From the NCBI GenBank assembly GCA_024743055.1, contig JANSXH010000007.1:62001-126000 (forward strand): 64,000 nt of DNA, given 5' to 3'. Shown here piece after piece: positions 25,003 through 58,640 of this stretch; positions within the stretch are counted from its first letter, which is position 1, and every line of letters starts with the position of its first letter. The notes beneath the pieces are model-generated. The model did no database searches. It was given only the letters and a program-made list of their open reading frames with translations, and was not told the DNA's origin. The DNA comes from Pseudomonadota bacterium. Its GTDB lineage: Bacteria > Pseudomonadota > Alphaproteobacteria > Sneathiellales > Sneathiellaceae. Position numbers and translations under genes: made by a program.

Positions 25003-25019
25003 CCAGCTCTCCCATTAAT

Positions 25020-25100
25020 TTAGATATCTAAGATAATACTATAGAATATTACCTGAAGCCTTGTCTAGCTTGCAATTTAAGATTAGATATCTAATATAAT
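25020..25100. promoter_or_regulatory. Divergent promoters with two identical palindromic operators TTAGATATCTAA
   Basis: The 12-bp perfect palindrome occurs at 25020-25031 and 25083-25094, with centres 63 bp apart, close to six helical turns. The right copy abuts TATAAT (25095-25100), a consensus -10 for the plus-strand reductase gene; TTGCAA at 25070-25075 is a possible -35. On the minus strand TAGACA and TATAGT with an 18-bp spacer fit a promoter for the oxygenase, with the left copy just downstream of the -10. Both operators are therefore placed for repression, most simply by the adjacent MarR protein. Confidence 0.65.
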
Positions 25101-25129
25101 TTGTCAAAAACTGTTTGTTTGGATTGGGA

Positions 25130-40670: not shown

Positions 40671-41348
40671 ATGAATACCATTGATGCAGACCCATACCAT
40701 TGGCCGTACAACGGGGATCTTAGACCCGAGAATACCGCCTTTATAATAATTGATATGCAAACGGATTTCTGCGGCATCGGTGGATATGTGGACCAGATGG
40801 GGTATGACCTGGGTCTAACACGCGCTCCTATTAAGCCCATTCTAAATGTCTTGGGCTTAATGCGGGAAAAAGGGTATCACATTTTTCATACCCGCGAAGG
40901 CCACCGACCGGATCTGTCGGACCTTCCTGCCAATAAACGTTGGCGTTCCCAACAAATTGGTGCTGGGATCGGCGATCCTGGACCATGCGGAAAAATACTG
41001 GTTCGCGGCGAACCCGGATGGGAAATTATTGACGATCTGGCCCCCCTGCCAGGTGAGTCTATTGTCGACAAACCCGGTAAAGGTTCTTTTTGTGCAACCG
41101 ATCTAGAATTGCTGCTGCGCGTTCGCGGTATTGACAACATTGTTCTTAGCGGAATTACGACAGACGTTTGTGTACATACCACCATGCGCGAAGCAAATGA
41201 TCGTGGGTTTGAGTGTTTGTTGCTGGAAGACTGCTGCGGTGCTACTGACCCGGGAAATCATGAAGCCGCCATAAAAATGGTAAAAATGCAAGGCGGTGTT
41301 TTCGGAAGCGTTTCCAATAGTGTGACATTTACCAGTCAACTGCCCTGA
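40671..41348 (+). CDS. biuH: Biuret hydrolase (biuret amidohydrolase), cysteine hydrolase family
   Basis: 225 aa isochorismatase-like cysteine hydrolase. The N-terminal [30 protein letters not shown], the [31 protein letters not shown] block and the C-terminal [22 protein letters not shown] follow the rhizobial biuret hydrolase as I remember it. The catalytic triad is Asp28, Lys134 and Cys167 (equivalent to Asp36, Lys142, Cys175 there). It cleaves biuret to allophanate and ammonia. AGAGG precedes the ATG. It heads a biuH-cupin-atzF operon; the last gene encodes the next step. Confidence 0.9.
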
Positions 41349-41755
41349 TGACGGAAGTGCAATCCCAACAGTCTTTATTTTGGAAGAGCTCAATGGCTGA
41401 ATCTTTGACTTATACAAATTTAGCAAATCATGGATGGCGAGAGTTCGAATTCGAACCCTTCAAGCCAGGTGTTGAAATCTACCGGTTGTCCCAGGGAAAA
41501 CCTGAGGCCGCTCTATTAAGATATGCCCCCGGTGCCACCATCCCCCGCCACCGGCATACAGGGTTGGAAACCATTCTCATATTGGAGGGATCCCAATGCG
41601 ATGAAAAGGGACGCTATGAATTAGGCACATTCATCCTAAATCCCGCCGGAACAGAACATACTGTTTGGACCGAGGAAGGTTGTGTTGTCCTCATACAATG
41701 GGAAACGCCCGTAGCTTTCCTCTCTATACCTTCAGATACGGCGGAGGCGGATTAA
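41348..41755 (+). CDS. Cupin domain protein (ChrR-type)
   Basis: 135 aa. The ATG overlaps the biuH stop (TGATG); an internal ATG at 41393 with GAAGAG nearby is also possible. A single cupin barrel has metal-binding residues in RHRHTGLETILILEG (H-x-H, E) and a distal His in GTEHTVW. It resembles the cupin part of ChrR-type anti-sigma proteins but lacks their N-terminal zinc domain. In a biuret operon it might bind a pathway intermediate or act as an accessory enzyme; function unknown. Confidence 0.75.
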   Translation: MTEVQSQQSLFWKSSMAESLTYTNLANHGWREFEFEPFKPGVEIYRLSQGKPEAALLRYAPGATIPRHRHTGLETILILEGSQCDEKGRYELGTFILNPAGTEHTVWTEEGCVVLIQWETPVAFLSIPSDTAEAD

Positions 41756-41759
41756 ATCA

Positions 41760-43547
41760 ATGGAAAACCTTTCATTTGATATAGCTTCCCTTCACAAGGC
41801 ATATAAAAGCGGCGTATTGGCGACCGAAGTTATTGCAGAATGCTATCGTAGAATTAACGATCAGGACGATGACGGTATCTTCATAACCCTGACCGACGAA
41901 ACAGCTGCCCTGTCTGCAGCTCAATCAATTGGGCCATTCGATCCCATTACAAAACCACTTTGGGGGATTCCATTTGTCGTAAAAGACAATATTGATGTAG
42001 ATGGAGCCCCGACTACAGCTGCCTGCCCAGCCTATGAGTATGTAGCTGAAAAAGACGCATTTGTTGTTGCAAGACTACGCGACGCTGGAGCAATTCTGAT
42101 TGGTAAGACAAACCTGGATCAATTTGCAACGGGTTTGGTTGGAATAAGATCACCATATCCACCACCAAAAAACGCAATTGACCCAAATATTGTGCCAGGC
42201 GGTTCAAGTTCAGGCTCCGCTGTTGCTGTAGCAAAAGGTCTAGTGAGTTTTTCGCTGGGAACAGATACTGCTGGTTCAGGGCGTGTGCCTGCTGCACTTA
42301 ATAATATTGTCGGCCTTAAACCAACGCTTGGCGCCCTTTCTGGCACCGGTGTTGTGCCAGCCTGTCGAACTCTAGATACAGTTTCAATTTTTGCGCTGAC
42401 TGTAGACAATGCTTATGACGTATACAAAGTCACCGCCGTATTCGATCCTGAAGATGCTTATGCTCGTACAGTGCCAACACCAAATTTGATCAATACACCG
42501 CCTTGTTTCACCATAGGTGTTCCTTCCCCAGGTTCCCGGGAGTTTTTTAAAGATACAGTTCAGGAAGTGTCATTTGAAAGGACGATTGAAGTAATCGCCC
42601 AAATTGGAGGAAGAGTTCGGGAAATAGATTTTGCGCCTTTCTACGATGTCGCAAATTTGCTGTATGAGGGCGCCTGGGTTGCGGAAAGATATACTGTTGT
42701 TGAAGAATTGATGGCTCAAAGGCCCGATGCCTTATTTCCTGTCACTAACGATATCATCAGTGAGGCAAAAAAGCTTTCTGCGGCTGATACATTCCGAGGA
42801 ATTTATAAACTTCAAGAGCTAAAGCGACTGATAGAACCTTTGATTGAGGCTATCAATATAATTTGCGTTCCGACTATCCCAACCTTTTATTCACTAGAAG
42901 ATATGAAGAAGGACCCTGTCGGCCCGAATTCACGCCTTGGTACCTATACTAATTTTGTCAATCTTCTTGATTTATGTGGAATTGCGGTTCCAGTTGCCCC
43001 TCGATCCGACGGCAGACCGGGTAGTGCAACGCTTTTAGCAAGAAGGTCAGAGGACAGTCTTGTCGCAAGTTTAGCCGCACTCCTTCACCAACAATCAAAT
43101 GTCACATTGGGGGCGACAAACTGGACTTTGCCTGAACGCAAACCTCTCGTCCCATCTACCGCCAAAGACGAAATTTTAATTGCTGCTGTCGGCGCACATA
43201 TGTCTGGCCTACCTTTAAATGCTGAGCTTGTTAAACTTGGAGGCCGGTTTCAAAGAAAAGCGAAGACCGCGCCGACCTACCGGTTATATAGCTTGAACGG
43301 CGGCCCACCCTTTCGACCTGGCCTCATGCGAGACAAGAAGGGGCAATCAATCGATCTCGAAATATGGTCTCTGCCGTCTCACCAGTTTGGAACTTTTTTG
43401 AAAGGAATACCGGCACCACTTGGGATCGGGACTATAACTCTCGATGATGGAAATGAAGTCAAAAGTTTCATTTGCGAAGCCATTGGGCTCGAGGGCGCCA
43501 AAGATATTACAGAATTTGGCGGATGGCGAAATTTCCTTGCCTCCTGA
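41760..43547 (+). CDS. atzF: Allophanate hydrolase
   Basis: 595 aa, the length of AtzF-type allophanate hydrolases. The N-terminal amidase-signature domain has the Ser-Ser-Lys triad Lys75 (VVKDNIDV), Ser149 (GGSSSGSA) and Ser173 (DTAGSGR). A C-terminal domain (about residue 465 on: VGAHMSGLPLNAEL.., then RLYSLNGGPPFRPGL) matches the allophanate-hydrolase C-terminal domain. It converts allophanate to ammonia and CO2. The start has GGAGG upstream and lies 4 nt after the cupin gene. Confidence 0.92.
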   Translation: MENLSFDIASLHKAYKSGVLATEVIAECYRRINDQDDDGIFITLTDETAALSAAQSIGPFDPITKPLWGIPFVVKDNIDVDGAPTTAACPAYEYVAEKDAFVVARLRDAGAILIGKTNLDQFATGLVGIRSPYPPPKNAIDPNIVPGGSSSGSAVAVAKGLVSFSLGTDTAGSGRVPAALNNIVGLKPTLGALSGTGVVPACRTLDTVSIFALTVDNAYDVYKVTAVFDPEDAYARTVPTPNLINTPPCFTIGVPSPGSREFFKDTVQEVSFERTIEVIAQIGGRVREIDFAPFYDVANLLYEGAWVAERYTVVEELMAQRPDALFPVTNDIISEAKKLSAADTFRGIYKLQELKRLIEPLIEAINIICVPTIPTFYSLEDMKKDPVGPNSRLGTYTNFVNLLDLCGIAVPVAPRSDGRPGSATLLARRSEDSLVASLAALLHQQSNVTLGATNWTLPERKPLVPSTAKDEILIAAVGAHMSGLPLNAELVKLGGRFQRKAKTAPTYRLYSLNGGPPFRPGLMRDKKGQSIDLEIWSLPSHQFGTFLKGIPAPLGIGTITLDDGNEVKSFICEAIGLEGAKDITEFGGWRNFLAS

Positions 43548-44171: not shown

Positions 44172-45380
44172 CTAGTCAATAATGGCATCATAAACCCAGT
44201 TCCTAACTAGTGGTCGATATGCTGTTCGTTGATCTGGCTGTTGAATCATGAAAACAATGATCAGCTCTTCAGCCGGATCAATCCAAAAATAGGTGCCAGC
44301 ATATCCACCCCACCAGTAGCTTCCTTTAGAGCCGGCTGCGAACCCTTGGTCCTCCAGGCGCACTGAAAAGCCATATCCAAACCCATTTTCATCGGTAAGA
44401 AGGTCGTAGTTGCCCGGGCGAACATTTTCGAGCTGATCTTGGGTCATCAAGGTCACCGTCTCCTCTTTCAGAAACCGTTTTCCGTTATAGAGGCCTCCGT
44501 TCAACATCATGGAGGAAAATATGAGATAATCGTCTGCGGTCGACATCAAACCCCCTCCCCCTGAATGCAGTTTTGGTTCTTTGCTTGGGTCGGACAGCCC
44601 CTGGAATTCCGGTTCAACAATTCTACCTTTTTTCTCTTCCGCTACATAAAAAGCCGTATCTTTCATACCCAGTGGAGTTAAAATTTCTTCTTCCAGAAAT
44701 TGATCGAGCCGTTTGTTGGACACGACTTCAATGACCCTACCCAACACATCTGTTGAATGACTGTATTCCCAAGCGTCTCCTGGCTGATGCTCGAGAGGGA
44801 GAGATGCTAACTTGCTGACCATCTCCGCCGTTGTCTGATTGACATCATACAAATCTACTTTTTGGTATTCCGCGCGCACCTCAGTATCTCCAAAGAAGCC
44901 GTACACAATCCCAGATGTGTGGCGCAAAAGATCTGCAATTGTGATGGGATTGTCCGGAGCGTACAGCTCCCCAAGCTCCATTACCTTTGTATCCGCAAAA
45001 GCCGGTATAAACTTTGCGACGGGATCGTTGAGGCTGATTTTACCCTGCTCGATCAACATCATGATGCCAACAGATGTAATCGGTTTGGTCATTGAATAGA
45101 TACGGAAAATATCGTCTATTTTTAAGGGTCCTGGCGCTGCTCCCTTTCCCCGAGTCCCAAAGGCTTTGTGATAGACAAGCTTTCCCTGCCTCATTACCGA
45201 TAATGTCGCACCGCTGATGCTTCCGTTTTTAATATCAGCGCGAAGGTTGTCATCAATGATTTCCAGTTTCTCGGAAGAAAGGCCAATTTTTTCAGGCGTA
45301 GTTACACCTTCCGCAAACGCACCATTTGAGAAATGGGCAACTGCCAATAGCAAAATCATGAACCGTAACTTCATTTTCAA
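44172..45380 (-). CDS. Secreted serine hydrolase of the beta-lactamase/EstB family
   Basis: 402 aa with a Sec signal peptide (residues 1-23, ending GAFAEG). The class C beta-lactamase/esterase fold has the nucleophile motif Ser96-M-T-Lys99 and Tyr in the WEYSHSTDVLG segment (YxN/YSH motif). Family VIII esterases of this type hydrolyse esters, lactones or amides more often than beta-lactams. It lies 107 nt downstream of the dehydratase-like gene on the same strand, so it may belong to the same regulon as an exported hydrolase. Confidence 0.83.
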   Translation of the reverse strand: MKMKLRFMILLLAVAHFSNGAFAEGVTTPEKIGLSSEKLEIIDDNLRADIKNGSISGATLSVMRQGKLVYHKAFGTRGKGAAPGPLKIDDIFRIYSMTKPITSVGIMMLIEQGKISLNDPVAKFIPAFADTKVMELGELYAPDNPITIADLLRHTSGIVYGFFGDTEVRAEYQKVDLYDVNQTTAEMVSKLASLPLEHQPGDAWEYSHSTDVLGRVIEVVSNKRLDQFLEEEILTPLGMKDTAFYVAEEKKGRIVEPEFQGLSDPSKEPKLHSGGGGLMSTADDYLIFSSMMLNGGLYNGKRFLKEETVTLMTQDQLENVRPGNYDLLTDENGFGYGFSVRLEDQGFAAGSKGSYWWGGYAGTYFWIDPAEELIIVFMIQQPDQRTAYRPLVRNWVYDAIID

Positions 45381-45487: not shown

Positions 45488-46981
45488 CTAGTCTTTGATT
45501 CCTGAAAGTCGTCGGGCAGCGGCCTTTTTTCCCTGCAGATCCGCACCTCTGGCAATCTGAATTCTTTGAGCTTGCGGCGAACCTGCACCATGTAGGGACT
45601 CCGTCAGATAGCCAACGGCATTGCGGCCCAATGTCATATTTTCGATCAACCTTAAAATGCGCATGCGATCTTCAAGTTTCGTATTGGTTCGGCCAACCAG
45701 ATATTTACTGACTAAGTGCCCGATTTCGCTGTTTCGTAAATCCTGCTCAGAAGGCATGGTCACCATTAAGCCTCCGGCGATGTCCTGTGCGAGACGGCTG
45801 ATTTCATACGGAAATCGGGTAACATTCTGCTTACAAACATTGGCAAGCAAATCGTTATTGAGATAAACGCCTGACTTCATCGGCTTCGCTTCATGAGCAG
45901 ATGCGAGCGCACCGGATCGAATGGTTTCATTCAGGTGAACCATTTCAACAATTTTGTCCTTTATATGAGAGGCATTTTCAACACCATTCATTTCTGCGAT
46001 TTCTGCTGCTGCGCCGATCAGAACATTCCCTACTCCTGATTTACATACGTAGCTGCAGCGATGATATGTCGTAAATCGTTCGACAAGCATTGCGGCAAAC
46101 TCAAATTCGCCATTCATGAATACATGGTCCCATGGAACGAAGACATCTTCGAAAATAATCATTGCCTCCTGGCCCGCATATTCAGCATTCCCCTGATCAA
46201 TCGTTCCAGGTTCAAGACACCGAGTGTCACTGGACTGACGGCCATAGATATACGTAATCCCGCTTGCGTGAGCAGGAACAGCCCCTACAAAAGCGTAGGC
46301 TTTATCTTTCTCTCCGAGCCTCAATGTAGGCATCACCATTAGCCAATGGGAATTAATACAGCCTGTTTGATGCAACTTGGCACCTGAAATATAAACACCA
46401 TTGTCTGTGCTTTTAGAGACATGAAGATAAAGGTCAGGATCTGCCTGTTCATGAGGTGCCAGTGAGCGATCTCCTTTGGCATCCGTCATCGCACCGCCGA
46501 TGACCTGATTGCGTTTTTGTAGAACCTTTAAGAAAGCAAGAAAACGCTCGTGATAGTGAGTCCCTTGGCTTTCATCAATTTCATAGCTCACCGAATGCAA
46601 TGCGTTTAAGGCGTCAAGCCCAACGCAGCGCTGAAAGCAGGTTCCCGTTTTTTGCCCTAATGCATGTTGCATACGTGCTTTATCAACAAGGTCACCCGCA
46701 GATCCTGCTATGTGGAGAAACCGATTTATTCGGGTGTCTGCCATCGGAGAGTGGACAGTGCCAATTTCTTCCTCCTCTACAGCCAATTCGTATGTTGCCG
46801 CCATCGCGTTAACGGAGGGGCGGATCAGGGGATGCTCTGTAGGCTCCTCGATCTGCTCCCCCATTAAGAAAACTCTCAAGTTACGCCCCATCAGGCTTTT
46901 CTTATATTCCTCAGCTGTTGTGATCGTTTCAACATCGCCCCAAAGCCTGGGGTCGCTGTTTGGATCTATATTCTGAGTCAT
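45488..46981 (-). CDS. 4-hydroxybutyryl-CoA dehydratase / vinylacetyl-CoA isomerase homologue (HpaB superfamily)
   Basis: 497 aa. It falls in the 4-hydroxyphenylacetate 3-hydroxylase superfamily but resembles the radical [4Fe-4S]/FAD dehydratase AbfD much more than the hydroxylases (GQKTGTCFQRCVGLDALNA, MTDAKGDRSLAPHEQADPD, NVCKQNVTRFPYEISRLAQD, ESLHGAGSPQAQRI). The cluster ligands of AbfD (Cys99, Cys103, His292, Cys299) correspond to Cys115, Cys119, His307 and Cys313; the His-to-Cys spacing is one residue shorter and an extra Cys309 lies between. Tyr311 and Lys314 also match. Expected reaction: 4-hydroxybutyryl-CoA to crotonyl-CoA. It sits with an iron ADH and a LIV-type transporter. Confidence 0.82.
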   Translation of the reverse strand: MTQNIDPNSDPRLWGDVETITTAEEYKKSLMGRNLRVFLMGEQIEEPTEHPLIRPSVNAMAATYELAVEEEEIGTVHSPMADTRINRFLHIAGSAGDLVDKARMQHALGQKTGTCFQRCVGLDALNALHSVSYEIDESQGTHYHERFLAFLKVLQKRNQVIGGAMTDAKGDRSLAPHEQADPDLYLHVSKSTDNGVYISGAKLHQTGCINSHWLMVMPTLRLGEKDKAYAFVGAVPAHASGITYIYGRQSSDTRCLEPGTIDQGNAEYAGQEAMIIFEDVFVPWDHVFMNGEFEFAAMLVERFTTYHRCSYVCKSGVGNVLIGAAAEIAEMNGVENASHIKDKIVEMVHLNETIRSGALASAHEAKPMKSGVYLNNDLLANVCKQNVTRFPYEISRLAQDIAGGLMVTMPSEQDLRNSEIGHLVSKYLVGRTNTKLEDRMRILRLIENMTLGRNAVGYLTESLHGAGSPQAQRIQIARGADLQGKKAAARRLSGIKD

Positions 46982-47055: not shown

Positions 47056-48003
47056 CTATCTAATTGCTGTTGGGTTAATCATCATTTGAACAGCGCCGCG
47101 CATCCGCGTGACCCCCAGAACGAACATGAACTCATATGCTTGGTCTTTTGCCAGCTCACGGGTATCCATATTCTCTAAGATGAAGATGCCATTTTGCGGT
47201 ATCAAGATCTGATGAACCTTAAAAATTCCATCTGCCCCTTCTTCAAAGGGCAAGGCTTCCAAGCCCCAGGTATCTGCACCGACAGCAACAACTTCCTTTG
47301 AAGCGAGATACTCTGCACCCGTGATTCCAAGACCTGGCTCAACAGATACGTACCGCTTGTGGTCTGGGTTTTCACCATCCAGCAATTCCAGCCAGCCTGA
47401 ATGAAAGAGCACGACATCTCCTTTTCGGATTTCAACTCCCTGTTTCTTTGCCGCGCCGATAACATCTTCTTTCGTGTAAGGAGTTCCCTCTTTTACAATA
47501 TCAACGCCATAGTAAGCAGCCATGTCCAGAAGAACACCGCGAGCAACAATCGGAGGGAGTTTTTCCAGGCCAAGCTTTTTAAGACCATCCGCTTTGGCAA
47601 ATTCAGAAGCTTTAAACCCGTTATAGTAAATGTGTTTAACACCGATATGGCCGAGGCCGTCAATCTGCGGGCCGATACCAAGCCAGCCGGCAAAGATGTC
47701 GTCGTTATAGGTCATACCATTGGTGCCCAAACCGTCCGTCTCAATCTGATTTGGCTGTAAAATGGTTATGCTCATAGACCGCGGCGCAAAAGCCGGTGTT
47801 TCCTTATCTACAACAATGCCAAGGTTATAGGTTTTGCCGGTTTTTACCAGTTTTGAGGCGTCTACGACACTTTCCGGTGTGATGAGATTCGCCGCCCCGA
47901 TTTCATCGTCAGGTCCCCATTTGGATTTGGTCCATTCCTGCGCATCGACGGACACAGCAAACCCGCAACTCAAAGCAACTCCCATTGCGATCAATTTTCT
48001 CAT
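47056..48003 (-). CDS. Exported cyclase-family (PF04199-type) metal-dependent hydrolase
   Basis: About 315 aa from ATG 48003, which has AGGAGG at ideal spacing; the frame to 48120 overlaps the ADH gene and is rejected. A signal peptide (residues 1-22, ending SVDAQ) exports it. The body resembles kynurenine formamidase/isatin hydrolase-like cyclases (KWGPDDEIGAANLITPESV). The metal-site segment reads IGPQIDGLGHIG, keeping Asp and His but not the canonical HxGTH. It may open a lactone, cyclic amide or ester in the periplasm. Confidence 0.78.
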   Translation of the reverse strand: MRKLIAMGVALSCGFAVSVDAQEWTKSKWGPDDEIGAANLITPESVVDASKLVKTGKTYNLGIVVDKETPAFAPRSMSITILQPNQIETDGLGTNGMTYNDDIFAGWLGIGPQIDGLGHIGVKHIYYNGFKASEFAKADGLKKLGLEKLPPIVARGVLLDMAAYYGVDIVKEGTPYTKEDVIGAAKKQGVEIRKGDVVLFHSGWLELLDGENPDHKRYVSVEPGLGITGAEYLASKEVVAVGADTWGLEALPFEEGADGIFKVHQILIPQNGIFILENMDTRELAKDQAYEFMFVLGVTRMRGAVQMMINPTAIR

Positions 48004-48085
48004 GATTTCCTCCTGTTTGGTCGCGACTTCTGATAAATTTGTATGGGCTAGTCGCATCCCCATTGCATATCTCAAATTCCGGCCG

Positions 48086-49270
48086 TCATAGCGCCTTGCG
48101 ATAGATTGCCTGGGCGTCACCGAGATTTATCTTTCGCGGATTGTTGATGAGCAATCGAGACTGTTTCATTGCATCCGTCGCAAGCTGCTCGATATCATCC
48201 TGCACAATACCAACACCCTTTAAGCAAGTCTCAAGACCAAGATCTGCAGACAACGCCGACAACCGTTCGATAAATTCAGAGCACACAGCCTGATTGGATC
48301 GAGACAAATTGATATCTGGGAAGACACAAGGAGCAAGTTCTGCATATTCGTCGCCGCAACCTGGGGCGTTGAACTGCATGACTTGGCAAAGTACCAGAGA
48401 ATTGGACAGGCCGTGAGGAACATGAAAAAGGCTTCCGATTGGATAGGCTAGCGCATGAACACCCGCTACCGGGGAATTTGCAAATGCTTGTCCAGCCAGC
48501 ATCGCACCAAGCAGCATGTTCGACCGGGCAGTAAGATTTTCCCCTTGGAATACTGCGTCGCGGATGTTGACTCCCAGCAACTTCAAGGCCTGCTTAGCAA
48601 GATTTCTGGAGATCGGATTGTTATTTGCATTTCGCGAGGTAAAGGCCTCTATGGCATGCACCATTGCATCTATCCCGGTCGCCGCAGTGATATGAGGTGG
48701 CAAGCCCAGGGTTAGTTCTGCATCTAATAGAGCGATATCGGGAAGCAGACATGGCGAGACAACACCTTTCTTCTCACTTTCCCCTGTGGTTACAATGGAA
48801 ACGGCTGTTACCTCAGATCCAGTGCCTGCTGTTGTTGGGACAAGTATCAATGGCAGCCGAGGGCCGGTTGCCTGATTGACACCATAAATGTCTTCAAGCT
48901 CCTGATCAGAGGCAAGCAGCAAGGAGGCTAGTTTAGCCGCGTCCATGGAACTACCGCCGCCAAACCCGATGACGCAAGTGACGGACTTTGATCTAGCGGC
49001 ATCTACAGCATCCAGAATTGTGGTTGCTTTTGGATCTGCTTCAATCTGATCATAGACAACAACCTGATAGCCGGCTTTTTCCAGATTGACCAGCGCCGGT
49101 AAGGTGAGCCCCAGCTTCATAATTCCGGGGTCTGTAACAAATAGAATTCCGGCTCCTTCGCGAACCGATGGTAAGCTATCAACTAAATCGCCTAATTGCG
49201 CCGCGCCTCCCCAACATTGTTGTATTCTGGGAGGTGTGTTGAAAGCAAAGTCTGTCATTGTCATGATCAT
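48086..49270 (-). CDS. Iron-containing alcohol dehydrogenase (4-hydroxybutyrate dehydrogenase-like)
   Basis: 394 aa Fe-ADH. The NAD(P)-binding motif GFGGGSSMDAAKL is followed by metal ligands in TGIDAMVHAIEAF and GVHALAYPIGSLFHVPHG (Asp and three His). Its ATG overlaps the stop of the LivF-type gene (ATGA), so it is cotranscribed with the transporter. Family members act on many primary alcohols; 4-hydroxybutyrate or a similar omega-hydroxy acid is suggested by the nearby dehydratase homologue (inference). Confidence 0.87.
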   Translation of the reverse strand: MIMTMTDFAFNTPPRIQQCWGGAAQLGDLVDSLPSVREGAGILFVTDPGIMKLGLTLPALVNLEKAGYQVVVYDQIEADPKATTILDAVDAARSKSVTCVIGFGGGSSMDAAKLASLLLASDQELEDIYGVNQATGPRLPLILVPTTAGTGSEVTAVSIVTTGESEKKGVVSPCLLPDIALLDAELTLGLPPHITAATGIDAMVHAIEAFTSRNANNNPISRNLAKQALKLLGVNIRDAVFQGENLTARSNMLLGAMLAGQAFANSPVAGVHALAYPIGSLFHVPHGLSNSLVLCQVMQFNAPGCGDEYAELAPCVFPDINLSRSNQAVCSEFIERLSALSADLGLETCLKGVGIVQDDIEQLATDAMKQSRLLINNPRKINLGDAQAIYRKAL

Positions 49271-49926
49271 GTCACCAGCTCATTCATCAAATCGATATGC
49301 CCACGCTCGATCGAATAGACTTTGTCCACGACTTTTTCTGAATGTGTATAATCTGATTCCGAAATAAGAACGGACATGTTCTCTGCCTTCAGGTCGGAAA
49401 TTACCTCCATTAGGCGTTCTGCCAGTGCAGGTGCAACGCCCTCAAAAGGTTCATCCAACAATAAAAGGTTTGTTCCGGATACCAGTGCCCGCGCGAGCGC
49501 CACCAGCTTTTGCTGCCCCCCGCTTAAGGTCAACGCCTTTCGGTCGGCAAAACGACCAATTTCCGGCATCAAGTCGTAAACCCATTTCAGTCGACTGACA
49601 TCTTGTTTATTGATCGCCCACAATGAAACCATGATGTTTTCCTGAACCGTAAAATGTGGAACAAGGCGTCTATCTTCCGGAAGATACCCAATGCCGAGGC
49701 GCGCGCGCTCATGTGCCTTAACCTGTGTCAACGAGGTACCGTTAAACGTTATGCTGCCTTTCTTCGTTGGGAGCAGACCCATGATAGCGCGCATTACGGT
49801 CGTTTTTCCGGCGCCATTGCGCCCTATCAACCCGCATGTAGATCCCACCTCAATTGCAAGGGATGCATCCCGCAGGATGGGAACATTTTGAATGGACAAA
49901 TCGAGGTTCTCTATCGTCAACATCAT
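49267..49926 (-). CDS. livF: Branched-chain-type ABC transporter ATPase LivF
   Basis: 219 aa ABC ATPase. Walker A is GRNGAGKTTVM, the signature LSGGQQKLVALARAL, Walker B LLLLDEPFEGVAP. Shorter than typical 233-240 aa LivF. It overlaps the upstream LivG by 4 nt and the downstream ADH by 4 nt. Confidence 0.87.
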   Translation of the reverse strand: MMLTIENLDLSIQNVPILRDASLAIEVGSTCGLIGRNGAGKTTVMRAIMGLLPTKKGSITFNGTSLTQVKAHERARLGIGYLPEDRRLVPHFTVQENIMVSLWAINKQDVSRLKWVYDLMPEIGRFADRKALTLSGGQQKLVALARALVSGTNLLLLDEPFEGVAPALAERLMEVISDLKAENMSVLISESDYTHSEKVVDKVYSIERGHIDLMNELVT

Positions 49927-50723
49927 TCCTCTCCTTTTTCAGAGGAGGAAGCTTCGCCGATATCTGACTTCCTGTGAAATTCGCTCCCGATGACAAATTC
50001 TCTGACCTTGGCATTTTCCAAAACTTCCTTGGTCGGACCGTCCGCCAGGATTTTTCCTTCATAAAATGCGATCACTCGCGGAGAGAAAGTTTCAACGATC
50101 TCCATATCATGCTCGATAAACAGAACGGCCGTTTTCGTCGCTTTTAAGGCGTTGATCAATACCTCCATGAAATGCATTTTCTCATCTGCACTTACCCCAC
50201 TTGTCGGCTCATCAAGAAACAGGAGATCTGGATCAGCGACTGTCGCCATGGCAATATCAATCAGCTTGCGGACCCCTTGTGGAAGGGTTGCAACTTCCTG
50301 GTCTGCATAGCCATCGATACGAAATCGTGCCAAATGATCCATGGCCGCCCGCTTAATTGAGGATGTTATTGCCGGACGTAAAAACACTGGTTTTTTCTGT
50401 TTTGCAATCGTTAGAGCAATGAGCATGTTGTCAAGCGCGGACAGTTCTAGAAACAATTGGGGAATCTGAAAGGACCGACATATTCCCAGCCGCGTGATGT
50501 CTCGCGTCGGTTTGCCGGTGATATCCCTTCCACGATATAGGATTTGTCCCGAAGTTGGCTTGAGATATCCAGTGACCATATTGACAAATGTCGTTTTTCC
50601 GGCCCCGTTAGATCCAATCACACCCAGCACTTCACCTGCGTCAATTCGCACATTGATGTTGGAGGCCGCTGTTACCGCACCAAATAGTCGCTCCAAATTT
50701 GAAGTCTGCAATAAAGTTGTCAT
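49923..50723 (-). CDS. livG: Branched-chain-type ABC transporter ATPase LivG
   Basis: 266 aa. Walker A is GSNGAGKTTFVNMV. The C-loop ATLPQGVRKLIDIAMATV replaces the usual LSGGQ with LPQGV, as in many amide- or urea-type LivG proteins. Walker B is LLFLDEPTSGVS. It pairs with LivF. The last residues are Ser/Glu/Gly-rich. Confidence 0.87.
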   Translation of the reverse strand: MTTLLQTSNLERLFGAVTAASNINVRIDAGEVLGVIGSNGAGKTTFVNMVTGYLKPTSGQILYRGRDITGKPTRDITRLGICRSFQIPQLFLELSALDNMLIALTIAKQKKPVFLRPAITSSIKRAAMDHLARFRIDGYADQEVATLPQGVRKLIDIAMATVADPDLLFLDEPTSGVSADEKMHFMEVLINALKATKTAVLFIEHDMEIVETFSPRVIAFYEGKILADGPTKEVLENAKVREFVIGSEFHRKSDIGEASSSEKGEE

Positions 50724-50726
50724 CTC

Positions 50727-51713
50727 TTACTCTCCACCAGGTCTAACTTCAGAAGTTTTTTGGCGCTGTGTATTAACGGTCGTCGATTTTCTGATTAGTG
50801 ACCAAAGCCCCTTTGGGAGAAAGATGATTGTCAAAAGCATGACAATTCCGAGGATCATTTGCCAGGTGTTGGGCGATACTTCAACAGCGTAAACCCGGAC
50901 TATTTCCAGAATAAAAGTACCAAATAGTGGCGCTACAATATTTCCGGTACCACTAAGAATGGCAATAAAGACGAACTGCCCGGATGTTGTCCAATTGGTC
51001 ATTTCGGGATCGACATGCCCCAGGGCGAGCGCCCACAAGACACCCCCAATTCCGGAGACAGTTGCAGCAAGCACATATTTAATGTGAACGGCACGGTGGG
51101 CTGATGTTCCCAGATATTCAACCCGCAATTCATTTTCTCTAATCGCCTCACCGATAAAACCCGTAGGGCTACGCAAATATCGATTTAACAAAAAGGCACA
51201 TAAAATCGTTGGGATACATGTCGCGATATAGAGAGCATATTTTGCTGTCTCATCCTGTGGCGCCCAACCGAAATAGGTGGCCGCTGGTAGGTTGAAGCCA
51301 TCCGTACTCCCCAACTCTTCAATGCTGGATAATAGGCCGAACAGGATCATCGACACTGCCAGGGACAGCATCGCATAAAAAATCTCCCGATACCGTCTAA
51401 GAAGGAAACCCAAAACAAAGGAAACAGCGACGCTGGCGACAATTCCCAGAGCCAACAGAAGGAATATATCAGATATACCGGCAAACTTTCCTGCGAGACC
51501 TGCTGCATAGCCGCCAATGCAGAAATACAGGCCCTGACCGAAGCTTACCAGGCCGGCCCGCATCTGGATCATGACACCCAGTGCAACGAGACCTGTCCCG
51601 AGCGATACCTGAATATAGTTTACGATCCATTCGGGCAGAACAAAGCCAAGGGCAATCAGAACTGGCAGTCCAGCCATCAGGCTGATCTCCGTACGGTCCA
51701 ATGAGCGGGTCAT
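50727..51713 (-). CDS. livM: Branched-chain-type ABC transporter permease LivM
   Basis: 328 aa with about nine TM helices and LivM motifs (MRAGLVSFGQGLYFCIGGYAAG and FVFIAILSGTGNIVAPLFGTF). It overlaps the LivH gene by 4 nt and precedes LivG by 3 nt. Confidence 0.87.
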   Translation of the reverse strand: MTRSLDRTEISLMAGLPVLIALGFVLPEWIVNYIQVSLGTGLVALGVMIQMRAGLVSFGQGLYFCIGGYAAGLAGKFAGISDIFLLLALGIVASVAVSFVLGFLLRRYREIFYAMLSLAVSMILFGLLSSIEELGSTDGFNLPAATYFGWAPQDETAKYALYIATCIPTILCAFLLNRYLRSPTGFIGEAIRENELRVEYLGTSAHRAVHIKYVLAATVSGIGGVLWALALGHVDPEMTNWTTSGQFVFIAILSGTGNIVAPLFGTFILEIVRVYAVEVSPNTWQMILGIVMLLTIIFLPKGLWSLIRKSTTVNTQRQKTSEVRPGGE

Positions 51714-52618
51714 ATCTTTCTCCCTTCAGCGAGTGCAAACAGGCCATATGGCTTTACAGCCAACACCGCCGCCATAACCAGATAGATGGAGAAAAGTTCT
51801 GCTGGAGGATAGATATGCACTGAAGCCGCCCGGGCGAGCCCGACGATGACCGCGCCAATCATGGCACCGCCGACACTTCCCATTCCTCCTATAACGATCA
51901 CGGCAAACGCCATAACGATTACTTCAGCCCCGATGCCGGGCGACACGGATATCTCGGGTGCGGTAATCGCTCCCCCCAATGCTCCTAGTGTTGCCCCAAT
52001 GACAAAAGTTACCGTGAAGAAAAGAGTTACATTGATCCCCAGCGCAGAGCTGATCTCGCGATCTTCAATAACGACGAGTAACAGCTTCCCGGATCGCGTG
52101 TGTGTAAGGACCAACCACAAAGACAGGCCACACAAAACCGCGACCCCAATGATCAGAAATTTGTATACCGTATAAGGTATGTCAAAGACGTCTATGGTTC
52201 CCAGATAATATGCCGGTTGAAAAGCAACATATGATTCTGTCCCCCAGATCAGCTTCGTAGCATCCTCTAGGATAAGAAACAAAGCATAGGTAACCAGAAC
52301 CATTAGTACTTCATCCCGCCCATACATGAAGCGCAAAACACCTCGTTCAATCAACAACCCGGCCACGACACCAACAACTATTGCCGCGGCGGGAATCAGT
52401 AGATAAGTGAAGGCAACATTGGATCCGGTCTGGACATAGAGGCCCACAGACCAGGCTGCAGAATATGCGCCGAGTGCATAGAACCCCCCATGGGCAATAT
52501 TTAGAATTCTCATTACGCCATAAATCAGCGTCAGTCCCACGGACGATAGGAAAAGCCAGGCAGCAAAGCCAAGTCCGTCCACTGCTATCGCGACTGCGGT
52601 AAGCATTTCAAACTCCAT
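51710..52618 (-). CDS. livH: Branched-chain-type ABC transporter permease LivH
   Basis: 302 aa with about eight TM helices and LivH signatures (LIYGVMRILNIAHGGFYALGAY and VIVIGGMGSVGGAMIGAVIVG). It is separated from the upstream binding-protein gene by a 173-nt gap with a hairpin. Confidence 0.88.
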   Translation of the reverse strand: MEFEMLTAVAIAVDGLGFAAWLFLSSVGLTLIYGVMRILNIAHGGFYALGAYSAAWSVGLYVQTGSNVAFTYLLIPAAAIVVGVVAGLLIERGVLRFMYGRDEVLMVLVTYALFLILEDATKLIWGTESYVAFQPAYYLGTIDVFDIPYTVYKFLIIGVAVLCGLSLWLVLTHTRSGKLLLVVIEDREISSALGINVTLFFTVTFVIGATLGALGGAITAPEISVSPGIGAEVIVMAFAVIVIGGMGSVGGAMIGAVIVGLARAASVHIYPPAELFSIYLVMAAVLAVKPYGLFALAEGRKI

Positions 52619-52791: not shown

Positions 52792-54123
52792 CTAGTTGCA
52801 GTTCGCCCCTTGAAAGCCACCCTCAATCCATTCAATTGAGGTCACGCCCGCTGGGGGATTGACGCAAGTTGCGTTAAAGCGCTTTATATCGACAAGCATC
52901 GCTTTACCGCTGTCTTTATCATATTTATACGTCCCGTAAGCCGTATCTTGGATCGCTTGATGTCCATTGGAAAGTGCCATGGAAACCATGCCGCTGGGAC
53001 CTTCCCACTCTAAGCCCTTTAGCGCACCGATTACCGCTTCCTGATCCGCAGATCCGGCCTTATCAGCCGCGGCCTTCATCCCCAAAATAGCCTGTGCCAT
53101 CTTGTAGGATGGGTATGTAGGCAGTGTCCCAAAGCGATCGAAATAAGCTTTACGAAACCAGTCATTCAACTCCGAGTCCGGGGCCAGATCGCCATGCGGG
53201 CCACGAGCTCCGATAATAGTTCCATCTGGCATCTGAGCGCCGAGTCTGTGCATCGCGGTTTCACCTGTTGTCAAAACTACCTTTGAACGATCAAAAATAC
53301 CTCGGGCGGCCCCTTGCAGGATGAATGCCTCCATATCGCCACCCCAGAAACTTGAGTGAACTACGTCAGGCTTTTTTGTAAGCAGGGCGGAAATTTCCGA
53401 TCCATATTGACCGGAGTATATTTTGGGGAACTGTTCTGTGGCAATCTCCGTCCCTTCTTCAATGACCTTCATAGAGGCTGAAAAATCACGCCAAGAGTCC
53501 TGACCCCAGGCATAGTTCTGGTTGATACCGGCAATTGAATCCGATTTCACGCCCGATGCCTCCAGATAGCGAGCGGCGGCAACGTTATCCATAGTTGCAT
53601 GGCCACCTGTCCGGAACGTATATTTGGGGTCAGTAACAATTTCCTCAAAGATTTGTGGGGTTCCACAATCGAAAAGAATTGTTAGTTTCTTGGCCTCTTC
53701 CGCTGCGGGCGCAATCGCCTTACAGCTGCCTGAAGAGATATAACCTACAATCATATCCACTTCATCTTTTTGAACGAGTTTTTGATAATCTGCCACTTTT
53801 TGCTTCGAGTTTTCATCGACAAAGATTGGATCAATTTTAGCGCCTGCAAATCCGGCAGAGTTATAGGGTGCCGGAACGGCACCTGCATTTATTGACTGGA
53901 TCATTAATTCAGCGGCATTTCGTGCAGGCACACCAAACGGACCTGCCGCACCGCCAGACAGGAAGGTCACGAAGCCAACCTTAACTGTTTTCTCTTCCTC
54001 TGCCATTGTTGGCGATGCCATAACTGCGAGACCCAATGATCCAGCAATGGCAACGGCACTAAGAGAAATCCCTTTCCTTATTATTGTCTTTACGGATTTT
54101 GTCGTACGAGGTGATATCCTCAT
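52792..54123 (-). CDS. ABC transporter substrate-binding protein, branched-chain/amide type
   Basis: 443 aa. A long N-terminus (RISPRTTKSVKTIIRKG) precedes a Sec signal (ending ASPTMA), then a type I binding fold (VKVGFVTFLSGGAAGPFGVPARNAAELMI). GGAGG precedes the ATG. It is the first gene of the run SBP-livHMGF-ADH-cyclase-dehydratase. Its upstream region carries TGAGCG-type motifs shared with the kinase operon. Confidence 0.87.
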   Translation of the reverse strand: MRISPRTTKSVKTIIRKGISLSAVAIAGSLGLAVMASPTMAEEEKTVKVGFVTFLSGGAAGPFGVPARNAAELMIQSINAGAVPAPYNSAGFAGAKIDPIFVDENSKQKVADYQKLVQKDEVDMIVGYISSGSCKAIAPAAEEAKKLTILFDCGTPQIFEEIVTDPKYTFRTGGHATMDNVAAARYLEASGVKSDSIAGINQNYAWGQDSWRDFSASMKVIEEGTEIATEQFPKIYSGQYGSEISALLTKKPDVVHSSFWGGDMEAFILQGAARGIFDRSKVVLTTGETAMHRLGAQMPDGTIIGARGPHGDLAPDSELNDWFRKAYFDRFGTLPTYPSYKMAQAILGMKAAADKAGSADQEAVIGALKGLEWEGPSGMVSMALSNGHQAIQDTAYGTYKYDKDSGKAMLVDIKRFNATCVNPPAGVTSIEWIEGGFQGANCN

Positions 54124-54361: not shown

Positions 54362-55636
54362 TCAGTTTTTTTGCTTATTTTTTTCTATAATTTCAGTCGG
54401 CCAGGTTTCTGGCGGATAATAAACAGACCAGTCCCCGAGCTGGACGGTTGCTGGCGGATAGCTGTTATCGAACACTGTTTTGCCGATAGCCTGCACTTGC
54501 AGCATTTGATGGTTCACAGGATCCATATGAGATTGAAAGCCCGCTGGATCTTCTGGAAGCGTAAGCGACAGACTTTCAAGTTTCTTGCGTAAAAGGTCTT
54601 TGTCATTCGTACCTCCAGCCTGACGTACCGCTTCAGCAATGGCCAGTATCCCGGTGTAAGCGCCTTCTGCAGCATAGCTCGGATATCGCCCAGCTTTTTC
54701 ATAAAACCGCTGAACAAAACTTCTGTTGAGTTCAGTATCCGGCCAGTTCACATGATGGCGAGCAGACAGTACGAGACCCAACGGCATGTCATTGCCGAGT
54801 TCTGCCAGAACTTCATAATTTCCGCCGGCATCAAAATTCATGAAAATCATATTGTCGAAAAGACCCAATTGTTTGGCTTGCTTGACAAATGTAACAAGAT
54901 CCAGACCCCAGTGACCGTTCACGACAACATCGGCACCACTGTTCTTGATATGCTGGATGTAAGTGGTGAAATCTGTCTCGAACAGCTTTGGCCAATAAAT
55001 GCCCACCACCTCATTTTGGACATTGTCGGCTTGCAGGAATTTTTTTAGGTCATCCCAAGCCTGATATCCATAATCATAATCAGGGCCAATAAACACAATT
55101 TTCAAAGGTGTTTTTTCTGATCCAAAATTCTCCTTTATATATTTTGCCCCGGCACGCATTGAAAGCCGTGTCCCATTATTGACCCGAAAATAAAAAGAAT
55201 GCCATCCGGTTAATGTCAGATTGGGCGACGCATGATCCGTTCCTATAAAAAAGACCTGTTTTTCCTTTGCGAGTTGAGAGACCGTGCGCGCTATACCGGA
55301 GCTGACTACACCGCATAGGAAATCCACCTCATCCACTTCGACAAACTCTCTCGCAATCTGTAAAGATCTAAGTGATTTAGACCTTGTATCTTCGACCACG
55401 ACTTCCAGCCTCGGATATAAATATTTCTCAGAGGATTGAAGAAACTCTTCCGCCATATTGATAGCAATGACACTGTCCCTGCCATATAACCCGCCCGGCC
55501 CGGTGAGAGGGTAAAGACAACCGACTTTGACAGACAGTGCTTCTTGAGGTTTTTGGGTGTCTTCCGCAAAAGAAGTTCGTCCCAAAGCTGTTAAACAGAA
55601 CAATATCAGAAGGATGTATTTGGTCGAAACGCTCAT
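54362..55636 (-). CDS. Periplasmic amide/amino-acid-type binding protein linked to a two-component system
   Basis: 424 aa with a Sec signal peptide (residues 1-24, ending RTSFA). It is a type I binding fold like UrtA/AmiC (KVGCLYPLTGPGGLYGRDSVIAINMAEEFL; YPSYAAEGAYTGILAIAEAV). Its start overlaps the response-regulator stop by 4 nt (ATGA), so it is translated with the kinase-regulator pair rather than with a permease. The best reading is an accessory sensor that loads ligand onto the kinase, although it could also serve the adjacent LIV-type transporter, which already has its own binding protein. Confidence 0.83.
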   Translation of the reverse strand: MSVSTKYILLILFCLTALGRTSFAEDTQKPQEALSVKVGCLYPLTGPGGLYGRDSVIAINMAEEFLQSSEKYLYPRLEVVVEDTRSKSLRSLQIAREFVEVDEVDFLCGVVSSGIARTVSQLAKEKQVFFIGTDHASPNLTLTGWHSFYFRVNNGTRLSMRAGAKYIKENFGSEKTPLKIVFIGPDYDYGYQAWDDLKKFLQADNVQNEVVGIYWPKLFETDFTTYIQHIKNSGADVVVNGHWGLDLVTFVKQAKQLGLFDNMIFMNFDAGGNYEVLAELGNDMPLGLVLSARHHVNWPDTELNRSFVQRFYEKAGRYPSYAAEGAYTGILAIAEAVRQAGGTNDKDLLRKKLESLSLTLPEDPAGFQSHMDPVNHQMLQVQAIGKTVFDNSYPPATVQLGDWSVYYPPETWPTEIIEKNKQKN

Positions 55637-56961
55637 GATAGCTCAAGTTTCTGCATCCGACGCTTCAATGCATGTCTAGAGATACCCAAACGCTCCGCAG
55701 CCAATCCCTTCTTGCCACGGCACTTTATCAGGGCATCCTGTACAAGACCTCGTTCTATACTGATCAATGATTCCTCAATTGTATGAGGCTTCTTCCTACT
55801 CAAATTCCTCATTTCCGACGGAAGCTGTTCTTCAATAATTTTTTGACCCGGATATAATATTGTTAAGCGTTCAATCAGGTTCTTGAGTTCTCGAACATTT
55901 CCTGGCCAATTATATGTGTAAAATATCTCCCGAACGGCACTCGAAAATTCTATAGAGCAGCAGCTAGCGTCCCGTGAAAATTTTTTTGCGAAATGCAGAC
56001 TTAACAGTCCGATGTCTTTTTCCCTTTCCCGAAGGGGAGGAATTTCAATTGGCATGACTTTGAGTCTAAAATAAAGGTCCTGTCTGAACGATCCATTTTC
56101 AACCGCTTCCTCCAGGTTGCCGTTCGTTGCCGCTATTACACGAACGTCTGCATGATGCTCCCTGACAATTCCCAAGGGTCGGTAACTCCTGGTTTCAAGA
56201 AATGCCAAGAGCTTGGATTGCACATTCAAAGGCATTTCCCCAATCTCATCCAGAAACAAGGTTCCACCATCCGCGATCTCCACAAGCCCTCTGCGCTTAG
56301 AGATGATTCCTGGAATAGCACCTCTTTCAGCGCCAAATAACTCCGCCTCAATTTGATTTTCCGGTAAGGTAGCACAATTTATTTCGACAAATGGTGACTC
56401 CCTTCCGCTCCCTCTGACATGAAGGTCTCGTGCAACCACAGCCTTTCCAACACCTGTTTCTCCTAACAGCAGTACGGTTTTTATGTTGCTGGAGGAGATG
56501 CGCTCGAGACACTCTCGTAGAGTTTTTATCAATGAGCTGTTGCCGATGAAAGTAGCTTCCTGTGTGTATCTTTCCCTCAAGTACTGGACTTCGGATTTTA
56601 AAAGGCGATTAGCGTTAGTCTCTTTGATCAACAATATCAATTCGTCAATGTCGAAGGGCTTCGACAGATAGTCTGCAGCCCCCATCTTCATAGCGTTTAC
56701 AGCATCCTGAGTGTCGTCAAAAGCCGACATCATGATCACAGGTGTATCTGGCAAGTCACCGTTCAATCGTTCCAGGACATCCAATCCGGACATTCCAGGC
56801 ATTCTGACATCGAGCAAGATTATGTCCGGGCTTTCTTTTTTCGCAAGCTTGCACCCAACGTGACCATTTTGCGCTTCTACACAATCAAAACCAGCCTGGC
56901 GAAGTGTAAATGCAAGGGATCTCCGTAAGTTAACTTCATCGTCGATAATTAGAATATTCAT
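55633..56961 (-). CDS. NtrC-family response regulator with degenerate GAFTGA loop
   Basis: 442 aa. The receiver spans residues 1-120 (Asp51 in LLDVRMPG, Lys101). An AAA+ domain follows with Walker A GETGVGKA (167-174) and Walker B GGTLFLDEIGEM. A Fis-type helix-turn-helix closes the protein (GLAAERLGISRHALKRRM). The sigma54-contacting GAFTGA loop reads GAIPGI (214-219), so sigma54 activation is doubtful; TyrR- or Rhodobacter NtrC-like sigma70 activation is an alternative. It overlaps the kinase gene and the binding-protein gene by 4 nt each. Confidence 0.87.
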   Translation of the reverse strand: MNILIIDDEVNLRRSLAFTLRQAGFDCVEAQNGHVGCKLAKKESPDIILLDVRMPGMSGLDVLERLNGDLPDTPVIMMSAFDDTQDAVNAMKMGAADYLSKPFDIDELILLIKETNANRLLKSEVQYLRERYTQEATFIGNSSLIKTLRECLERISSSNIKTVLLLGETGVGKAVVARDLHVRGSGRESPFVEINCATLPENQIEAELFGAERGAIPGIISKRRGLVEIADGGTLFLDEIGEMPLNVQSKLLAFLETRSYRPLGIVREHHADVRVIAATNGNLEEAVENGSFRQDLYFRLKVMPIEIPPLREREKDIGLLSLHFAKKFSRDASCCSIEFSSAVREIFYTYNWPGNVRELKNLIERLTILYPGQKIIEEQLPSEMRNLSRKKPHTIEESLISIERGLVQDALIKCRGKKGLAAERLGISRHALKRRMQKLELS

Positions 56962-58640
56962 GATTTTCTCAAAGTTGCCTTTGTTCGAACTGGAAATGTC
57001 AACTTCACTGTTGTGCCTTGACCCGGTTCGCTTTCAATTTCAAGCTTGCCGTCGTTGGCTTCCACTAATTGGTTTGTGATTGAAAGTCCGAGTCCCGTCC
57101 CTCCCGGTCGAGTACTGAAAAAAGGCTGTAAGACTTTTTCCAGGTCTTCATCACTCAGGCCGATACCGTCATCACTCACCGAAATTTCAGCAAGCTCTCC
57201 GTCTCGAAGTGCACGCAATGTAATGTGCCCTCCATTCGGTAGTGCCTCCACTGCGTTCAGGGTGAGGTTTAATAAAACCTGCCGAAGATGCGCATTGTCT
57301 ATTTCTATTTCTAGGGCCGAGTCACCCACTAAGTTGAAAATAATGCTTTTCTCATGCGCCGTCGCCGCCATGAGCGTCCTAACGCTTCTAAAAACCTCCC
57401 GCAGTAGAACCTTCTGGGTTACGGGTTCGCTGGGCTTCGCATAGCGAAGAAACTCTGAAATCGTGTTGTCAACTCTGGCAATTTCGTCTGAAATCACTTG
57501 ATACATTTCTTGTCTATTCGGGCTTTTCTCATTTCGGCTTAAGCCATGTACGGTTGTTGCGACAGTTGCCAGAGGGTTTCGTATCTCATGGGCAATTCCA
57601 GCTGCCATATTTCCTAGAGCGGCACGGCGCTCCACATCGACACGCGACTTTATCAATGTGCCAAGCTGAGCGCTCATCTTATTGAAGGATCGCGCAAGCA
57701 TACCCAATTCACCTGGCCCGTTTTCAGCCACCCTGAGTGAGAAATTTCCGTTAGCGACAGCCTGCGCCCCTTCATTCAATGGCAATAGAAACCTACTCAA
57801 ACGGTCAGACATGTGAATAAATAGCCAAAGTATGCTCAATACGGATACAACAGCAACAACCAACAAAATGTAGCGAATTTGTACTCGAGGTTCATCAAGA
57901 CTACCGCCTCGTTCTACAAGATGGACTTTCCATCCCGGCATTATCTGTCGTGATTTTGCCAGAACATCTCCTGCAGCTGCCAATGTGCCAACTGCCGAAA
58001 CATGAATACGATCAAAAATCACAACTTGAGGATCATAAACGTCAGGCTCAATCAATGAGACGGTCTTTTCAGTCAGGGACGCAAGTCGTGTGCGCAATGC
58101 AACCAAGCCGATTTTTTCTTGATTTAAATAAACGGGCATTCGAATGAGAAACCAGCCCGGACGCCCATCTGTCGGCAAGATAGGTCCAAGAACCTCTACA
58201 TTATTGTATTGGATTATGGGAAGCGTTCCATGATCAATGGAAACAGGTCGCCATCTTGCCGCAGGAATCGTAGCAACAGTCTGTCCTTCGACATCAAAAA
58301 ATTCTACGGAATATATATCAGGGCTTTCAGTCTCCAATAGCAGAAAATCTGAAAGCTGCTGCGACATGGATTTGTGTGAATTCTCAAGAAAGAAGCGCGT
58401 TGTATCTGGCAGATCGACAATATTTTCCAGCTTATTTACTTGAACAGAGACAAAATTGTTCATCCTCAAAGCGACCGTTTCCAGATTTCCCTCCACCTTG
58501 TTGGTCAGAAGCGTGTTCAACAAGTTTGCGCTATAGCGATCATATAAAACGGCCATAATTACGAACGGCACGAGAGCGACGATAAGGGCCCCTAGCAAAT
58601 ATCGCTTCGCAAGGGTTAGTCTTTTAACCTCAAATCGCAC
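56958..58640 (-). CDS. Sensor histidine kinase (periplasmic sensor, HAMP, HisKA)
   Basis: 560 aa from a GTG with GGAAGGAAG upstream. TM1 (16-33), a periplasmic domain of about 220 aa of Cache-like appearance, TM2 (257-275), HAMP (about 276-330), HisKA (GNMAAGIAHEIRNPLATVAT, His351), then a HATPase (FFSTRPGGTGLGLSITNQLV). First gene of the kinase-regulator-binding-protein operon. Its promoter has two TGAGCG-type sites, suggesting autoregulation. Confidence 0.87.
   Translation of the reverse strand: MRFEVKRLTLAKRYLLGALIVALVPFVIMAVLYDRYSANLLNTLLTNKVEGNLETVALRMNNFVSVQVNKLENIVDLPDTTRFFLENSHKSMSQQLSDFLLLETESPDIYSVEFFDVEGQTVATIPAARWRPVSIDHGTLPIIQYNNVEVLGPILPTDGRPGWFLIRMPVYLNQEKIGLVALRTRLASLTEKTVSLIEPDVYDPQVVIFDRIHVSAVGTLAAAGDVLAKSRQIMPGWKVHLVERGGSLDEPRVQIRYILLVVAVVSVLSILWLFIHMSDRLSRFLLPLNEGAQAVANGNFSLRVAENGPGELGMLARSFNKMSAQLGTLIKSRVDVERRAALGNMAAGIAHEIRNPLATVATTVHGLSRNEKSPNRQEMYQVISDEIARVDNTISEFLRYAKPSEPVTQKVLLREVFRSVRTLMAATAHEKSIIFNLVGDSALEIEIDNAHLRQVLLNLTLNAVEALPNGGHITLRALRDGELAEISVSDDGIGLSDEDLEKVLQPFFSTRPGGTGLGLSITNQLVEANDGKLEIESEPGQGTTVKLTFPVRTKATLRKS

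Follow-up and report, generated by a model that had tools for sequence, protein, structure and literature searches.

The window analysed here, a 64,000-nucleotide stretch of DNA from what is probably an aerobic alphaproteobacterial genome, encodes a protein that its sequence identifies as a genuine 4-hydroxybutyryl-CoA dehydratase (AbfD or 4HBD) and not as an HpaB hydroxylase. We consider it likely that this protein is a functional [4Fe-4S]/FAD AbfD belonging to an aerobic clade of the family, most likely feeding 4-hydroxybutyrate (4HB) or a precursor thereof to beta-oxidation in air. A rare radical enzyme, AbfD has been known chiefly from strict anaerobes and from ammonia-oxidising archaea (AOA), and it is in wide use as a marker for the HP/HB carbon-fixation cycle of archaea. 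Its occurrence in aerobic bacteria is already known, from databases, under hydroxylase names, as well as from papers, and earlier papers consider AbfD in bacteria and propose HP/HB cycles for some of them (PMC9802188; PMC4195664). What is added here, as read from sequence trees, is a robust aerobic clade uniting thaumarchaea with named and cultured aerobic bacteria.

Identity of the protein

45488..46981, minus strand: abfD, predicted 4-hydroxybutyryl-CoA dehydratase (ORF, PDB matches, trees and structure model)

The 497-aa ORF is unbroken from its start at 46981 down to 45488, and the opposite (plus) strand of the same interval contains many stop codons. In a phmmer search against PDB chains, the protein scored 716 bits with 6VJR, the 4HBD of N. 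maritimus, and 536 bits with 1U8V, the AbfD of C. aminobutyricum, against only 106 bits for the best HpaB, which excludes a chance match to AbfD. The Pfam scan returned only the shared HpaB_N and HpaB domains (PF11794 and PF03241), whose names would suggest an FAD-dependent aromatic hydroxylase of the HpaB type. Such an enzyme has virtually no probability, as the NCBIfam scan gave HpaB models only, all far under their curated cut-offs (TIGR02309 and TIGR02310; 146.3 vs. 480.2 and 72.6 vs. 885.2 bits), the tree and the structure group the protein with AbfD, and the cluster ligands are missing from both reference HpaBs in the alignment; on scores, tree and ligands, the HpaB assignment was ruled out. 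The HpaB oxygenase component of 4-hydroxyphenylacetate 3-monooxygenase does have the fold and Pfam domains in common with the window AbfD, but it is about 20% identical, is devoid of the cluster ligands and performs an O2-consuming hydroxylation. The AbfD-like identity proposed in an earlier note on this DNA is thus upheld by the ligands and the Tyr/Lys pair, the PDB scores and the tree alike, as is its expectation of a hydroxylase mislabelling, since the plasmid homologues of B. elkanii and Sphingomonas are named '4-hydroxyphenylacetate 3-hydroxylase N-terminal domain-containing protein' in RefSeq.

Regarding structure, an AlphaFold2 model generated without cofactors from a 61-sequence alignment (mean pLDDT 94.7, pTM 0.92) has the AbfD fold. 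With Foldseek and VIA-align, the model is nearest to 6VJR (64% identity over 479 residues, 1.0 Å rmsd, Z 60.3), followed by 1U8V (Z 55.8 over 478 residues), the HpaB structures being well behind (Z 39 or less).

Active site, loop deletion and Cys309

Residues were mapped on a MAFFT alignment of the family, with the numbering of C. aminobutyricum AbfD (1U8V) as reference. The [4Fe-4S] ligands C99, C103, H292 and C299 correspond to C115, C119, H307 and C313 of the window AbfD, and Tyr296 and Lys300 to Y311 and K314, in agreement with the four ligands and the Tyr/Lys pair previously read from the sequence. Also kept are Q101 (Q117), T190 (T206), E257 (E272), E455 (E461) and A460 (A466), so that all active-site residues checked are identical to those of the C. 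aminobutyricum enzyme; their functional roles we take to be those established for the clostridial enzyme. The codons of the main positions, as placed by alignment, are the following:

46637..46639, minus strand: Cys115, [4Fe-4S] ligand (C. aminobutyricum C99)
46625..46627, minus strand: Cys119, [4Fe-4S] ligand (C. aminobutyricum C103)
46061..46063, minus strand: His307, [4Fe-4S] ligand and proposed base (C. aminobutyricum H292)
46055..46057, minus strand: extra Cys309 (C. aminobutyricum Q294; Arg in N. maritimus)
46049..46051, minus strand: Tyr311 (C. aminobutyricum Y296)
46043..46045, minus strand: Cys313, [4Fe-4S] ligand (C. aminobutyricum C299)
46040..46042, minus strand: Lys314 (C. aminobutyricum K300)

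By homology, the window AbfD would work like the clostridial enzyme. The cluster on C115, C119, H307 and C313 would bind the C4 hydroxyl, and the deprotonated thioester would give one electron to FAD, yielding a radical in which the unactivated beta-C-H is acidified; the beta proton would then be taken by His307, the hydroxide would depart to iron and the electron would be returned, giving crotonyl-CoA. Vinylacetyl-CoA would also be isomerised by the enzyme. While C. aminobutyricum AbfD shares the ligands and catalytic residues (52% identity, 1.2 Å), it has one more residue between His and Cys and stands outside the aerobic clade; it is an oxygen-sensitive enzyme of fermentative metabolism.

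The stretch from the His to the last Cys reads HRQSYGGC in C. aminobutyricum vs. HRCSYVC in the window AbfD. The one-residue deletion pointed out in the earlier note is therefore real in comparison with C. aminobutyricum, but it is no special feature: it is common to all members of the aerobic clade and is also found in Desulfobacterales/Myxococcota, spirochaete, Tessaracoccus and Opitutae sequences, many of them from anaerobes (Desulfobacterales, spirochaete and Opitutae MAGs). As a marker of oxygen tolerance, the deletion was ruled out, since anaerobes have it and the aerobic Sulfolobales-type or crenarchaeal-type enzymes retain the longer loop. The extra Cys309, likewise pointed out, is indeed present at the position of Q294 but appears as a lineage marker with no known functional device attached. 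Within the set, it occurs only in the window AbfD and in L002, L003, L099/L091 and L100/L092, which form a 100/99 subclade in the 89-row tree, and it is best read as a synapomorphy of these five alphaproteobacterial sequences; a role as fifth ligand found no support. Besides, two AbfD relatives (40%) from Syntrophomonas relatives, L066 and L067, retain the Lys and all three Cys, with Gln replacing the ligand His, Thr the Tyr and Ser the Glu257, and possibly carry out a different chemistry on the AbfD scaffold.

Phylogeny, distribution and oxygen

Relatives were drawn from named genome contigs, searches of same-class and archaeal genomes, and plasmids; the main tree comprised 89 rows, B. elkanii and Sphingomonas being added only in a focused tree. 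In the main tree, the window AbfD belongs to a 33-row clade (100/100 support) of alphaproteobacteria, an Oceanococcus-labelled MAG, Ca. Actinomarina and thaumarchaea including 6VJR, and the focused tree gave the same picture, with both added sequences in the aerobic clade. Placement among the HpaB hydroxylases, which the earlier note had set against its own reading, was not what the phylogeny returned, the window protein lying inside the AbfD clade together with characterised AbfDs and the HpaBs on a long separate branch.

Crenarchaeal-type AbfD forms a distant separate clade (42-47% identical), and monophyly of the thaumarchaeal and crenarchaeal enzymes, i.e. their single archaeal origin, is rejected (AU p 0.0034). 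In the trees, the thaumarchaeal sequences seem to sit within the bacterial ones, though a single bacterial clade is still not rejected (AU p 0.33; 0.24 in the focused tree), so that a transfer may have run either way between the two groups. Among the sequences sampled here, the closest relatives of thaumarchaeal AbfD are from aerobic bacteria, a relationship that seems to have been little noticed before and that helps to trace the origin of the archaeal carbon-fixation enzyme. A wider proposal is tentative and, taken as a whole, rather doubtful, namely that an air-stable radical 4-hydroxyacyl-CoA dehydratase serves oxic 4-hydroxybutyrate or gamma-lactone breakdown in aerobic proteobacteria and Actinomarina, and that this bacterial pool was the source of the key enzyme of AOA CO2 fixation.

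The closest characterised enzyme, N. maritimus 4HBD (6VJR; gene Nmar_0207, PMC8670421), resembles the window AbfD in sequence (64% over 479 residues), ligands, deletion and membership of the 100/100 clade; it differs in having Arg at the position of Cys309. N. maritimus is an archaeal autotroph, and in the thaumarchaeal relative examined abfD follows a 4HB-CoA synthetase-type gene, whereas the window AbfD comes from an apparently aerobic bacterium and has uptake and hydrolase genes as neighbours. The plasmid homologues of B. elkanii and Sphingomonas paeninsulae (63% and 61% identity), from isolates of generally aerobic genera, share motif and clade with the window AbfD but have Arg or Ala at position 309 and different neighbours, i.e. 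an AMP-binding ligase and a lactonase, and a CoA transferase.

AbfD was found in none of the 23 other genomes of the genus; in two of them the search gave no more than a 33% paralogue and in one a 24% match. At E<=1e-100, it is present in 11 of 385 evenly drawn same-class genomes (about 3%), the window's own genome included, and this patchy pattern suggests horizontal acquisition of abfD. A binning error is unlikely, given the 203-kb contig, the matching GC (0.478 for the gene vs. 0.482 for the window) and an estimated contamination of 0.06%. Alphaproteobacteria is adopted as the class on the strength of the CtaD matches, led by Sinorhizobium, Bradyrhizobium, Shinella and Rhizobium, and of the named close relatives; a search of the draft for 16S rRNA returned none. 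A paralogue family of same-class genomes (L075-L080, the congeners G004 and G017 among them), which shares some 33% identity with AbfD, retains Cys99 and His292, with C103, C299, Y296 and K300 replaced by Tyr, Ala, Cys and Arg; such paralogues could pass for AbfD in marker-gene surveys.

The earlier note had considered an oxygen-tolerant bacterial version possible on account of an O2-dependent oxygenase in the window, which proves to be the following:

23701-25002, minus strand: Rieske oxygenase (Rieske and LigXa_C domain matches)

Next to it is encoded a divergent Fer2-domain protein that is probably its reductase. Together with the two haem-copper oxidase subunit I (COX1) genes of the genome, this oxygenase implies aerobic life. 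Near the Rieske oxygenase/Fer2 pair (23701-26080) lie genes of the Gfo/Idh/MocA and class II aldolase types, and this gene content reads as a putative cluster for aromatic-ring catabolism.

That the enzyme of some ammonia-oxidising archaea tolerates oxygen, as stated in the earlier note, agrees with the title of 6VJR, 'Oxygen tolerant Archeal 4hydroxybutyrylCoA dehydratase (4HBD) from N. maritimus', and thaumarchaeal 4HBD is termed O2-tolerant both in PMC7554672 and in PMC11494057, which cites a preprint on that tolerance. The window AbfD, which stands in the same 100/100 clade as this thaumarchaeal-type enzyme, is predicted to be oxygen-tolerant too. An ordinary oxygen-sensitive AbfD, used by a facultative organism only in microoxic or anoxic conditions, would fit the presence of the deletion motif in anaerobes as well; the company that the protein keeps nonetheless makes this unlikely, as the other members of the clade are aerobic AOA, surface-ocean Actinomarina, the cultured B. 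elkanii (from soybean nodules) and Sphingomonas (from Antarctic soil), and the enzyme of 6VJR, described as oxygen-tolerant. With an oxygen-tolerant enzyme as the preferred reading, the 12 clade-diagnostic positions of the aerobic clade, among them N158, G162, W213, R221 and T304 (numbering of P0001), provide candidate residues for work on oxygen tolerance, for which a bacterial AbfD would be a tractable radical dehydratase. Since close relatives occur in aerobic bacteria, marker-gene counts from oxic seawater can also include bacteria doing something else.

Gene neighbourhood and proposed role

The genes considered around abfD are the following:

44172..45380, minus strand: carboxylesterase-type serine hydrolase (PF00144) with a signal-peptide-like N-terminus (Pfam and sequence)
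47056..48120, minus strand: PF04199 'cyclase' hydrolase, 354-aa ORF, with a likely start at 48003 that gives a signal-peptide-like N-terminus
48086..49270, minus strand: Fe-containing alcohol dehydrogenase (Fe-ADH), in the same minus-strand run as abfD
49267..52618, minus strand: branched-chain-type ABC importer, two ATPases and two permeases (layout and sequence reading)
52792..54123, minus strand: periplasmic substrate-binding protein of the ABC importer (sequence)
31927-33129: class III CoA-transferase, 29% identical to the Sphingomonas CoA transferase

The ABC importer genes overlap or abut the Fe-ADH gene. The Fe-ADH, 31% identical to a Cetobacterium 4HB dehydrogenase and 35% to an Fe-ADH encoded beside the Oceanococcus abfD, is possibly a 4-hydroxybutyrate/succinic-semialdehyde oxidoreductase, the substrate being deduced from such similarities; it is present in 6 of the 23 congeners, all six without abfD. 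Directly upstream of the importer (54362-58640, minus strand) lie genes for a second periplasmic binding protein, then for a putative NtrC-type response regulator and a putative histidine kinase, which together might sense the substrate for the gene run.

We infer the activity, substrate and pathway direction of the window AbfD, like its oxygen tolerance, from these comparisons. The secreted hydrolases encoded beside abfD would open a lactone or ester precursor, the adjacent ABC system would import it, and this material, or 4-hydroxybutyrate itself, would enter beta-oxidation as crotonyl-CoA. The neighbours of the window abfD were not found at any other abfD locus examined, so that an operon-based function is weak evidence. 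No CoA ligase or transferase lies directly beside the window abfD, and no AbfT-type 4HB-CoA transferase (PF13336), as used in the clostridial module for 4-aminobutyrate/4HB fermentation, was found in the genome, a draft 86% complete.

At other loci, the partners of abfD vary. A MaoC hydratase, a thiolase, AbfD and a Zn-ADH form a conserved set in four Actinomarina-type loci; near its abfD, the B. elkanii plasmid encodes an AMP-binding CoA ligase and a substrate-binding protein as well as a protein of the lactonase family; in Sphingomonas, the CoA transferase gene is directly downstream; and in the anaerobic Cetobacterium, abfD is found with an AbfT-type acetyl-CoA hydrolase/transferase and a 4HB dehydrogenase, which parallels abfD and Fe-ADH in the window. 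The theme across loci, from a 4-hydroxyacid through its CoA ester to beta-oxidation, points to oxic catabolism of 4HB or of lactones/esters. In L099 and L100 (genomes G216 and G308), AbfD is flanked by a molybdenum hydroxylase 35% identical to one near the B. elkanii plasmid abfD, with an AMP-binding ligase too in L099, and this Mo-hydroxylase/AbfD neighbourhood thus recurs.

Since neighbourhoods vary by genome, and lactonase, esterase and Mo-hydroxylase genes could suit various precursors, the AbfD fold and radical chemistry might be applied to another 4-hydroxyacyl-CoA as natural substrate, e.g. one derived from a longer gamma-lactone; this is improbable in view of active-site residues that, where examined, all equal those of two 4HB-CoA dehydratases, and of a sequence 64% identical to that of N. 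maritimus 4HBD. A role in the HP/HB carbon fixation cycle is far less probable still. The closest archaeal relatives do serve this cycle, which certain bacteria have also been proposed to run (PMC9802188; PMC4195664), but the sole ADP-forming synthetase homologue of the genome is encoded away from abfD and shares only 34% identity with the Nitrosarchaeum protein whose gene precedes abfD, the surroundings are of the uptake and hydrolysis type, and the gene is patchy within the genus.

Elsewhere in the window (40671-43547, plus strand), consecutive genes encode a biuret amidohydrolase (409 bits, cut-off 370), a ChrR-type cupin and an allophanate hydrolase. They make up an operon for biuret degradation, next to which a LysR-like regulator and an ABC importer of the peptide type are encoded.
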